NCBI GenBank assembly: GCA_029953615.1
Contig: CP124529.1
Coordinates: 2,632,998-2,696,997 of the forward strand
Origin: Pseudomonas putida
GTDB taxonomy: Bacteria; Pseudomonadota; Gammaproteobacteria; Pseudomonadales; Pseudomonadaceae
Direction of reading: 5' to 3'
DNA: 64,000 nt
The position numbers were made by a program, and so were the translations under genes. Each line of letters starts with the position of its first letter. Position 1 is the first letter of the stretch. The notes below the pieces were generated by a model. The model made no database searches and had not been told where the DNA came from. It worked only from the letters and a program-made list of their open reading frames with translations. This document shows, one piece after another, positions 30,928 through 60,000 of the stretch.

Positions 30928-30967
30928 GGGGGCGCTTTGCGCCCCATCGCGACACAAGGCCGCTCCT
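30928..30967. repeat. REP arm used as target by IS110 copy 1
   Basis: GGGGGCGCTTTGCGCCCC then ATCGCGACACAAGGCCGCTC, cut by the element at the CT core (30966-30967). The opposite arm of the pair (TGTAGGAGCGGCCTTGTGTC, then GGGCTGCAAAGCAGCCCC) survives at 32272-32316 on the other side. Confidence 0.85.
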
Positions 30968-31223
30968 TGTATGTTGTGTCTGGCCTAGCGGGAGAGGTTA
31001 TTCTCGTCGGGCTGAAGAAGCACTTCCGGGGAGGCCGATCGCTCCTGAAGGCAGGTATTGCCCCTGACCTTGTATGTAGAGAGGCCCCCGCCTCATTGCC
31101 CACTGCGAAGAGTATCGAGAAGCCGACAAGTCGGACTTCGCATTACAAGGTTGCAGCAGCATGAAGTTCGAGGTCGGGGAACCGGAGGCCATTGTTACCT
31201 AACTCGCTTGGGAGAGGGAAGGA
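30968..31223 (+). ncRNA. Putative bridge RNA region of IS110 copy 1
   Basis: The non-coding left end contains CGCTCCT (31040-31046) close after AGGCCG (31032-31037), repeating the REP target AGGCCGCTCCT. It also contains CCTTGTATGT (31068-31077), identical to the left IS/REP junction (30965-30974), and AGAGTATC (31109-31116), identical to the right end (32228-32235). IS110 elements are known to encode a bridge RNA whose loops pair with target and donor ends; these matches are the sequence evidence here. Exact RNA ends are not determinable. Confidence 0.65.
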
Positions 31224-32219
31224 ATGAGTGTCTGGGTTGGCGTCGATATCGGCTCACGTACTTCGGTCGTTGGGGTGCGTAAAGATGGGCGTCCGGCCGG
31301 ACAGTGGGATATCGCTCAAACCCCTGCAGGCCGTAAGGCTGCGGTGAAAAAGCTGCTGGCACTCAAACCCAAGTCGATCGTGATGGAGGCGACCGGAATC
31401 TATTACCTGGACTTGGCCCTTGAGCTACATGCGGCTGACCTCCCTGTATCCGTGATCAACCCCAAGAGCTTCCACAATTTCGCCAAACTGATGCTGGTGA
31501 ACAGCAAGACCGATGCAATAGATGCTCAACTGCTGTCCGAGTACGGCGAGCGTATGACACCGCGCTTGTGGACACCTCCAAGCCTTGTGCAGCTTGAACT
31601 GAGGGCTCTGGGGCGACACATCAATCGTTTGGTGGGGCATCGTACAAGGGCGAAGAACGAACTGCATGCATTGCAGGCGACCGCTACAACCGTGTCGATG
31701 CTGATCGAGGATCAGGAGGAAGCGATTGCTTCACTGGATAATCGAATTGAGCGCTTTCGTAAGGCGGGCCGCGAGCTGGTCGCCCAGTGTCCGACGCTTA
31801 CTCGGCAGTACAAGCAGCTGCTCGCAGGGCCTGGGATGGGAGAAGTCTCTGCACTTGCGGCATTGGCTGAACTGACCATCCTTCCTCAAATGCTCAAGTC
31901 CTCGCAGGTAGCTCGCCACGCGGGTCTCGATGTTCGACAGACCCAATCGGGAACGAGCATTGATAAGCCCGGCAGACTCGGCAAAAGTGGGAATGCTTAT
32001 CTACGGGCAGCCATGTACATGCCTGCCTTGACCGCAGTGCGCTGCGACCCTTATGCGAAGGCTTTTTACGAGTCGTTGGTCAACAGGGGCAAGAAGAAAA
32101 TGCAGGCTATCGCTGCTGTCATGCGCAAGTACCTGACAGGCATCTGGGCATGTATGCGCGGGGATGAGCCATTTGATACGGCCAAGCTTTTCAGCTCTGA
32201 ACACCTCAGAAAAGCTTGA
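31224..32219 (+). CDS. IS110-family transposase, copy 1
   Basis: 331-aa DEDD recombinase. The N-terminal RuvC-like domain begins [15 protein letters not shown] (Asp8), with Glu in [19 protein letters not shown] and the Asp pair in [16 protein letters not shown] coiled-coil linker (about 125-190) leads to the Tnp/transposase_20 domain [16 protein letters not shown], with FGK-like [12 protein letters not shown] and the catalytic Ser region [19 protein letters not shown]. It cuts and joins donor and target under bridge-RNA guidance. ATG follows GGGAAGGA. The frame is intact and the protein identical to copy 2. Confidence 0.95.
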
Positions 32220-32267
32220 CCGCCAACAGAGTATCTACATTGGTCCCGTTCCCTCTGCGAGCGCCGT

Positions 32268-58610: not shown

Positions 58611-58725
58611 CCGTGTAGGAGCGGCCTTGTGTCGCGATGGGCTGCGCAGCAGCCCCGGCAATCTTGAGTCGTAGTGGAGATGCTGGGGGCCGCGTTGCGG
58701 CCCATCGCGACACAAGGCCGCTCCT
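58611..58725. repeat. REP pair interrupted by IS110 copy 2
   Basis: GTGTAGGAGCGGCCTTGTGT..GGGCTGCGCAGCAGCCCC (58613-58656) and the inverse arm GGGGCCGCGTTGCGGCCC, ATCGCGACACAAGGCCGCTC (58686-58723), cut at CT 58724-58725. Confidence 0.85.
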
Positions 58726-58982
58726 TGTATGTTGTGTCTGGCCTAGCGGGAGAGGTTATTCTCGTCGGGCTGAAGAAGCACTTCCGGGGAGGCCGATCGC
58801 TCCTGAAGGCAGGTATTGCCCCTGACCTTGTATGTAGAGAGGCCCCCCGCCTCATTGCCCACTGCGAAGAGTATCGAGAAGCCGACAAGTCGGACTTCGC
58901 ATTACAAGGTTGCAGCAGCATGAAGTTCGAGGTCGGGGAACCGGAGGCCATTGTTACCTAACTCGCTTGGGAGAGGGAAGGA
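58726..58982 (+). ncRNA. Putative bridge RNA region of IS110 copy 2
   Basis: Identical to the copy 1 leader except for one extra C. CCTTGTATGT recurs at 58826-58835. See copy 1 for the target and donor matches. Confidence 0.6.
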
Positions 58983-59978
58983 ATGAGTGTCTGGGTTGGC
59001 GTCGATATCGGCTCACGTACTTCGGTCGTTGGGGTGCGTAAAGATGGGCGTCCGGCCGGACAGTGGGATATCGCTCAAACCCCTGCAGGCCGTAAGGCTG
59101 CGGTGAAAAAGCTGCTGGCACTCAAACCCAAGTCGATCGTGATGGAGGCGACCGGAATCTATTACCTGGACTTGGCCCTTGAGCTACATGCGGCTGACCT
59201 CCCTGTATCCGTGATCAACCCCAAGAGCTTCCACAATTTCGCCAAACTGATGCTGGTGAACAGCAAGACCGATGCAATAGATGCTCAACTGCTGTCCGAG
59301 TACGGCGAGCGTATGACACCGCGCTTGTGGACACCTCCAAGCCTTGTGCAGCTTGAACTGAGGGCTCTGGGGCGACACATCAATCGTTTGGTGGGGCATC
59401 GTACAAGGGCGAAGAACGAACTGCATGCATTGCAGGCGACCGCTACAACCGTGTCGATGCTGATCGAGGATCAGGAGGAAGCGATTGCTTCACTGGATAA
59501 TCGAATTGAGCGCTTTCGTAAGGCGGGCCGCGAGCTGGTCGCCCAGTGTCCGACGCTTACTCGGCAGTACAAGCAGCTGCTCGCAGGGCCTGGGATGGGA
59601 GAAGTCTCTGCACTTGCGGCATTGGCTGAACTGACCATCCTTCCTCAAATGCTCAAGTCCTCGCAGGTAGCTCGCCACGCGGGTCTCGATGTTCGACAGA
59701 CCCAATCGGGAACGAGCATTGATAAGCCCGGCAGACTCGGCAAAAGTGGGAATGCTTATCTACGGGCAGCCATGTACATGCCTGCCTTGACCGCAGTGCG
59801 CTGCGACCCTTATGCGAAGGCTTTTTACGAGTCGTTGGTCAACAGGGGCAAGAAGAAAATGCAGGCTATCGCTGCTGTCATGCGCAAGTACCTGACAGGC
59901 ATCTGGGCATGTATGCGCGGGGATGAGCCATTTGATACGGCCAAGCTTTTCAGCTCTGAACACCTCAGAAAAGCTTGA
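58983..59978 (+). CDS. IS110-family transposase, copy 2
   Basis: 331 aa, identical in translation to the transposase at 31224-32219: DEDD domain ([25 protein letters not shown]), C-terminal transposase_20 domain ([30 protein letters not shown]). The intact frame and identity suggest recent movement. The TGA stop lies within the TTGACC that would be a -35 box after circularisation. Confidence 0.95.
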   Translation: MSVWVGVDIGSRTSVVGVRKDGRPAGQWDIAQTPAGRKAAVKKLLALKPKSIVMEATGIYYLDLALELHAADLPVSVINPKSFHNFAKLMLVNSKTDAIDAQLLSEYGERMTPRLWTPPSLVQLELRALGRHINRLVGHRTRAKNELHALQATATTVSMLIEDQEEAIASLDNRIERFRKAGRELVAQCPTLTRQYKQLLAGPGMGEVSALAALAELTILPQMLKSSQVARHAGLDVRQTQSGTSIDKPGRLGKSGNAYLRAAMYMPALTAVRCDPYAKAFYESLVNRGKKKMQAIAAVMRKYLTGIWACMRGDEPFDTAKLFSSEHLRKA

Positions 59979-60000
59979 CCGCCAACAGAGTATCTACATT

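Follow-up and report, generated by a model that had tools for sequence, protein, structure and literature searches.

The 256-base leader of an IS110-group insertion sequence (IS) in Pseudomonas putida (30968–31223, plus strand) is, judging from its sequence, almost certainly the gene of a bridge RNA whose programme is a REP. Positions refer to the window, the whole 64,000-nucleotide stretch of DNA that was analysed, which belongs to a genome of 5.76 Mb in one contig. The case is built from a two-loop fold, four guides, covariation of the left target guide (LTG), right target guide (RTG) and left donor guide (LDG) with the DNA that they would contact, a promoter motif at the circle junction, and the insertion sites themselves. 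Transcription, RNA binding, cleavage and strand exchange would proceed as they do for IS621 of E. coli. A preliminary description of this DNA had proposed a bridge RNA with a REP programme, target loop ahead of donor loop, and the comparisons presented here support that proposal.

The insertion sequence and its predicted bridge RNA

The IS lies at 30968–32236 and is flanked on both sides by the core dinucleotide CT (30966–30967 and 32235–32236). Its layout is that of the IS110 group rather than IS1111, with 256 non-coding bases upstream of tnp and 17 downstream, core included. The transposase matches DEDD_Tnp_IS110 (PF01548, 1e-21) and Transposase_20 (PF02371, 1.6e-17), both over the Pfam cut-offs. 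Residues D8, E55, D97, D100 and S242 are invariant among 15 sequences and align with the DEDD motif and S241 of IS621, and also with ISCro4; the roles of the DEDD and serine residues in IS110 recombinases have been described (PMC11208158). The genome contains 11 full-length copies, and the earlier observation that the two insertions in the window share a single base extends to every one of them: 11 of 11 lie at the same REP base, CGCTC-CT|ACA, with the 2-bp CT at both junctions. The wider insertion context is ...ACAAGGCCGCTC-CT|ACA, with L011 reading ACGAGG. The left end CCTTGTATG is kept in all aligned elements, the ends having been located via this same motif. The features of the element are as follows.

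30949–30967, plus strand: left half of the interrupted REP, GCGACACAAGGCCGCTC, with core CT (30966–30967); from the sequence and copy comparison
30968–31223, plus strand: 256-base non-coding left end (LE) with the predicted bridge RNA gene
30970–30975, plus strand: −10-like box TATGTT of a putative promoter that would arise only in the circular IS (−35-like TTGACC at 32216–32221, 17-base spacer)
31025–31189, plus strand: predicted bridge RNA core by covariance model R1 (170 bits; the model was built with this sequence among its rows)
31028–31036, plus strand: 5′ arm of the target-binding-loop outer stem, GGGGAGGCC (helix 1; double changes in 4 of 8 pairs)
31040–31046, plus strand: LTG, CGCTCCT, in the same sense as REP CGCTC plus core CT
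31048–31071, plus strand: inner hairpin of the target loop, AAGGCAG...CTGACCTT (helix 2; double changes in 5 of 7 pairs)
31075–31079, plus strand: RTG, TGTAG, the reverse complement of core CT plus ACA; holds the REP head GTAG
31083–31089, plus strand: 3′ arm of the target-loop outer stem, GGCCCCC
31090–31174, plus strand: donor-binding loop, its closing stem GCCTC (31090–31094) with GAGGT (31170–31174) (helix 3)
31109–31116, plus strand: LDG, AGAGTATC, in the same sense as right end AGAGTAT plus the first core base
31119–31139, plus strand: inner hairpin of the donor loop, GAAGCCGAC...GTCGGACTTC (helix 6; double changes in 5 of 9 pairs)
31141–31149, plus strand: right donor guide (RDG), CATTACAAG, of which ACAAG reverse-complements core CT plus TGT
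31224–32219, plus strand: tnp, IS110 DEDD transposase/recombinase, 331 aa (Pfam; IS621 and ISCro4 sequence matches)
32220–32236, plus strand: right end, CCGCCAACAGAGTAT, with core CT (32235–32236)
32237–32239, plus strand: right target ACA, the remainder of the REP head CTACA
58709–60000, plus strand: the window's other copy of the IS (L005), with a bridge RNA core at 58783–58948 (179 bits)

Guides were assigned by the rule published for IS621, in which the LTG has the same sense as the left target plus core, the RTG is the reverse complement of the core plus right target, and the donor guides follow likewise (PMC11208160, PMC11208158). The resulting order, LTG–RTG–LDG–RDG, is that of IS621. 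The CAT of the RDG could pair discontiguously with ATG, and discontiguous RDGs have been reported for IS110 bridge RNAs (PMC11208160). Of 20,000 first-order Markov copies of the leader, none shows the ordered four-guide pattern that the real one has; the comparison is only illustrative, the pattern having been composed with the leader already in view.

Four strings had been picked out earlier as matches to the target or the IS ends, and all four are present where they were reported, although only two of them are guides. CGCTCCT, read as matching the target, and AGAGTATC, read as matching the right end, correspond to the LTG and LDG, and both covary with the pairing DNA in relatives; the chance of at least one occurrence in a first-order Markov leader of 256 bases is 0.017 for the former and 0.0056 for the latter. 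For AGGCCG, also proposed to match the REP target, the same chance is 0.13, and the string lies mostly within the 5′ arm of the target-loop outer stem. All 30 aligned leaders retain the stem form RRCYG, while only three of the 30 elements (that of the window, L036 and L073) have GCCG in the left target, in a check of at most 11 bases per element, two of them shortened by a contig end. The fourth string, CCTTGTATGT, had been read as a donor match to the left junction. Chance alone would rarely produce it (0.0001), but only 3 of 30 leaders have it exactly, those of the window element and its near relatives L061 and L062, although all elements keep the left end; it is the 3′ arm of a hairpin (CCTT) running into the right target guide. 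Two short guides, the RTG TGTAG and the RDG CATTACAAG, had been overlooked.

Conservation of the fold and covariation of the guides

An alignment of 15 transposases was searched against named genomes, and 78 loci of 134 relatives were kept. Leaders were taken from those loci, from further genomes and from one plasmid, giving alignments of 28 (A2) and 30 (A3) leaders; L034 is in A2 and not in A3. The clade is uncommon: 5 of the 369 Gammaproteobacteria-class genomes drawn match at 1e-80, the genome of the window included. A search of a viral collection for relatives returned one distant match only, and a plasmid nucleotide search one Vibrio match. One clade member, L140 (1007–1168), with a transposase identity of 43%, is carried by an IncC plasmid of Vibrio alginolyticus, which indicates that the clade can ride on plasmids; its site is without a REP-like hairpin, yet has ACTCCTACA / CACTCCTACA.

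The preliminary description had named the loss of a two-loop structure among relatives as an outcome that would count against a bridge RNA. In A3 the two internal loops flanked by stems are conserved. RNAalifold on A2 gave 41 pairs, 21 of them with a double change. For the A3 fold, 97.1% of 1,018 cells are paired, against 37.7–47.4% when partners are slid by 1–3 columns; double changes occur in 17 of 34 pairs (shuffled mean 7.3), and the covariation score of 0.231 (shuffled 0.109) was reached by 0 of 500 shuffles. Deriving the structure from the alignment on which it was then scored favours these A3 statistics. Folding the single sequence 31005–31205 gave no improvement on shuffled sequences (z −0.74; 40 of 200 shuffles did as well), and an Rfam search gave no match. 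Model R1 found 35 matches in 41 sources. Of these, 21 at 159–179 bits are clade leaders, a good many being rows of the model itself or close to identical with them; 13 at 12–29 bits fall within the leaders or loci of different IS110 elements, and the remaining match (18 bits) lies elsewhere in L066.

The guides follow the DNA beside each element. In a set of 31 elements, the LTG and the element's left flank agree at a mean of 5.26 of 6 bases, compared with 3.55 when flanks are exchanged among elements, and 0 of 20,000 such shuffles attain the observed value; below 80% transposase identity (n=23) the figures are 5.39 and 3.59, again with 0 of 20,000. These and the other guide–flank shuffles ignore the relatedness of the elements. 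The match is 6/6 in 15 elements, 5/6 in nine (the window element among them) and 4/6 in seven (L032, L061, L063, L070, L071, L090 and L140). The RTG matches the right target at 2.81 of 3 bases against 2.51 shuffled (n=27; 6 of 20,000 shuffles reach this), with weaker tracking among the 19 elements below 80% identity (58 of 20,000). It misses one of three bases in five of the 27 (L076, L077, L085, L093 and L142), and the mismatches of L076 and L077 could wobble. With wobble allowed, the LDG matches the right end at 3.00 of 3 bases against 2.80 (n=28; 7 of 20,000), also more weakly below 80% identity (n=20; 23 of 20,000). The RDG reads ACAAG or GCAAG in 28 of 28 A2 rows, and the left end hardly varies. 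In L036 and L083 the guide has CCC where the target reads CCT at the core.

The counts of 31 leave out further copies (L064–L066, L072, L086, L147, L149, L151, L153 and L002–L011), second fetches of one contig (L033, L037, L038, L141, L143 and L146), and L035, which is also outside A2 and whose LTG would match at 5/6. L079 is without a left end, and other truncated or distant loci are likewise excluded from the guide counts.

LTG and flank agree in several distinct forms: TCGGCCC in Parahaliea (L078), CCCACCC in Alcanivorax (L080) and Stutzerimonas (L093), CCCAACC (L082), CATGACC (L085) and CCCGACC (L142, in a genome with at least five copies). Read from their sequences, these matched variants represent natural reprogramming. 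On the donor side, the right-end variant AGGGTATC is matched by the LDG in Neomelitea (LDG from L114, right end from L079), and the variant TAAGTATC of L087 is likewise matched by its LDG. L034 and L067 have transposases 93–97% identical to that of L063 and differ from it by one LTG base (CACTCC/CGCTCC), matching a CACTCC flank, a possible case of recent reprogramming by point mutation; L035 provides a counter-example, retaining the LTG CGCTCC next to a CACTCC flank. In L034 (G213) a 3′ fragment of tnp (residues 195–331) follows directly after the element, whose first right end is GAGTATCG. This fragment adjoins three of the four copies of that genome among the matches listed, so the longer unit may move whole. 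L091 and L046 each have two tandem right ends, 103 and 149 bases apart respectively, which recall the internal end copies of ISPpu9 with ssr9 (PMC8450116).

The REP target, a second lineage and alternative explanations

REPs have the head GT(A/G)G and, after it, a palindrome (PMC2817692), and the P. putida W619 REP TGTAGGAGCGGCCTTGtGTCGCGAA given in that paper is the present target read on the other strand. The junction is CTAC, the reverse complement of GTAG, at 44 of 46 lineage-1 sites, 11 of them the own-genome copies; the exceptions are L077 (CTGC) and L083 (CTAT), the latter with an RTG that reads ATAG. GTAG is held by the RTG in 29 of 30 leaders (A3). The genome has 253 occurrences of the GTAG-type sequence CGCTCCTACA (34 for a reversed-pattern control), 231 of the intact REP form GGCCGCTCCTACA (control 6) and 1,384 of the GTGG-type sequence CGCTCCCACA (control 22). 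All 11 insertions are in the GTAG type and none in the GTGG type; if heads were ignored, the chance of 11 out of 11 would be about 2e-9 by our own arithmetic. The preliminary description had also named copies with the same leader in unrelated targets as an outcome that would count against its proposal, and the 11 own copies are all in the same REP target. Among the repeat families of the window, most of D1 (16 copies) belongs to the GTGG REP type (GCTCCCACAGG), and D7, D9 and D10 belong to the GTAG type, which is also where the window's two IS copies lie.

The target of the element is over-represented in seven of seven hosts tested. With control counts in brackets, CCCACCCTAC occurs 310 (13) times in the genome of L080, 176 (3) in that of L076 and 23 (3) in that of L093. 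GCCCGACCTACA occurs 246 (20) times in G544 and 2 (5) in the genome of the window; TCGGCCCTACA 116 (4) times in the genome of L078, 1 (3) in that of the window and 2 (7) in G020; and GCCGGTCCTAC 179 (10) times in G020, 0 (31) in the genome of the window and 4 (16) in that of L078.

A second REP-targeting IS110 lineage is found in Pseudomonas, with transposases 28–35% identical to those of lineage 1. Of 22 loci considered (L039–L060), the 13 with recognisable ends were used (L039, L042–L047, L049, L051, L053–L055 and L060); L041, L048, L050, L052, L056–L059 and L040, a 77% fragment of lineage 1, were dropped. The ends differ (CCTTGTAT...GACGGTATCT, right end GGTATCT), but the core, the point in the REP and the guide order are the same as in lineage 1. 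The junction is CTAC at 12 of 13 sites, and L044 and L049 are in the same ACAAGGCCGCTCCT REP as the element of the window. Agreement between the LTG and the element's own left flank stands at 6.77 of 8 bases, against 4.08 shuffled (n=13; 0 of 20,000), in a count that keeps near-identical rows and the L039 row, whose anchor is off by three bases. This signal is present at the guide register only, with none at five other offsets. Of the 12 loci among these 13 that were searched with R1, 11 matched at only 12–29 bits, and L039 gave no match. The lineage resembles a remark made in 2006 that ISPpu9 and ISPpu10, which are not highly similar, share one insertion point (PMC1525189).

Other explanations for the leader can be weighed against these data. 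It might be a structured 5′-UTR, or a regulatory or antisense RNA locus for tnp, with incidental guide matches. ISPpu9 offers a precedent in its structured 244-nt 5′-UTR, with the antisense RNA Asr9 across it (PMC8450116), and such a role would be compatible with a bridge RNA role in the same leader. A regulatory UTR does not, however, predict that loop bases should track the host flank and the IS right end across relatives, and we consider this reading very improbable. It is less probable again that the site is chosen by the transposase itself, or by the shape of the REP hairpin, and that the RNA adds little. The folding energy of left flanks was insensitive here (median quantile 0.21, 7 of 28 below 0.1), and a strict hairpin test was used instead. 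A perfect stem of at least 5, ending 0–3 bases before C plus the core, precedes 15 of 33 sites, where 1.34 are expected from windows of the same loci, but it is missing from the other 18, including the imperfect palindrome of the window's own site. Sites that are not REP-like include those of L071, L072, L085 and the plasmid copy L140, and in the last of these CACTCCTACA is still there. Nor would shape alone account for the absence of all 11 copies from the GTGG-type sites, despite the greater number of the latter.

Least probable of all, in our view, is that the likeness of LTG and flank reflects common ancestry of elements and hosts, or a captured piece of flank. Related elements do live in related hosts with similar REPs, a relatedness to which the shuffles are blind. 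The LTG signal nevertheless persists below 80% transposase identity and recurs in the second lineage at the guide register only, and the tracking reaches the donor loop and the IS right end too. A guide RNA with target guides matching both REP halves would explain why copies are found at one base.

Relation to known elements and a model for REP recognition

One of the nearest described systems is IS621. The recombinases share the DEDD/serine arrangement (phmmer 8.7e-33). The predicted LE-encoded two-loop RNA of the present element resembles that of IS621, as do the guide order, the CT core, the short RTG, the putatively discontiguous RDG and the junction promoter motif. The E. coli REP target of IS621, ATCAGGCCTAC, has the same geometry of palindrome arm, C, core CT and AC (PMC11208160), whereas the REP palindrome and left guides differ and the transposase is only distantly similar. 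The four-base RTG of IS621 pairs with CTAC (PMC11208158) and must therefore, we infer, read GUAG. Among solved structures the closest by protein sequence is the ISCro4 recombinase (PDB 9t56, 7.1e-40). As with the seekRNAs of ISEc21 and ISMch6, the RNA lies upstream in IS110 fashion with its bottom-strand match before the top-strand match; natural redirection has been reported for those elements, and the relevant passages of PMC11187229 do not describe their target as a REP, unlike that of the present element.

ISPpu10 of P. putida KT2440 belongs to the IS110 group; its insertions share one fixed base within P. putida REPs and carry a 2-bp repeat (PMC1525189). The present element is like it in both respects, in 11 of 11 copies, ISPpu10 being compared by description only. 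ISPpu10 is also among six elements with a predicted bridge RNA complete with LTG, RTG, LDG and RDG (PMC11208160, Extended Data Fig. 10c), and the earlier hint of a possibly undescribed target loop in ISPpu9/10-like elements therefore does not hold for ISPpu10. The name does not appear among the 120 listed of 1,071 homologues, nor among those listed of 273. ISPpu9, an IS110-family element of the same strain that shares the REP insertion point of ISPpu10 (PMC1525189), differs from the present element in having 328 non-coding bases upstream of tnp (84 + 244, PMC8450116) rather than 256.

When the right end of the window element is joined to its left end, a sigma-70-like TTGACC-N17-TATGTT is formed. 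A TTGA-N18..20-TATGTT motif (a match to the motif only) is present at the circle junction of 27 of the 28 elements with a right end found, the exception being L085; the right end was not found in 3 of 31 elements. The motif resembles the RE–LE junction promoter of IS621 (PMC11208160). In the mechanism that we propose, the IS would be excised as a circle in which the right end, with its TTGACC box, joins the left end, with its TATGTT box, and the joined ends would act as a promoter driving the leader RNA. In the second loop, LDG AGAGTATC and RDG CATTACAAG would pair with the joined right and left IS ends. The DEDD/serine recombinase would then swap target and donor at their common CT core, each new copy being placed in the GTAG head of a REP.

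Bridge and seek RNAs of IS110/IS1111 elements, their reprogramming and some natural redirections have been published (PMC11208160, PMC11208158, PMC11187229), and REPs were in print as IS110 targets by 2006 at the latest (PMC1525189). Among the open-access journal papers searched, we found none joining IS110 guides with the GTAG head. The text of PMC3733652, on GTAG repeats, makes no mention of IS110, and a paper on HuH/RAYT enzymes calls IS110 entirely unrelated. We think it fairly probable, with real room for doubt, that the REP is read in two parts: a constant RTG (GTAG) on the head, which serves RAYT transposases too, and a variable LTG re-evolved for each host palindrome. Such a reading would be common to two lineages about 30% identical and, by extension, to IS621; the coincidence of dissimilar IS110 elements at the same base would be due to the guide RNA and not the protein, and bridge RNAs would co-evolve with REP/REPIN families.

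The general pattern of a constant GTAG guide with a host-tuned LTG is worth testing. With it, the published puzzle of ISPpu9 and ISPpu10 at one REP base (PMC1525189) becomes a testable guide-RNA model. The elements described here provide a set of putative naturally reprogrammed bridge RNAs with readable targets in Pseudomonas, Alcanivorax, Parahaliea, Stutzerimonas, Halomonas and others, and two mobile systems, the IS110 elements and RAYT/REPINs, would be linked through a common GTAG head.
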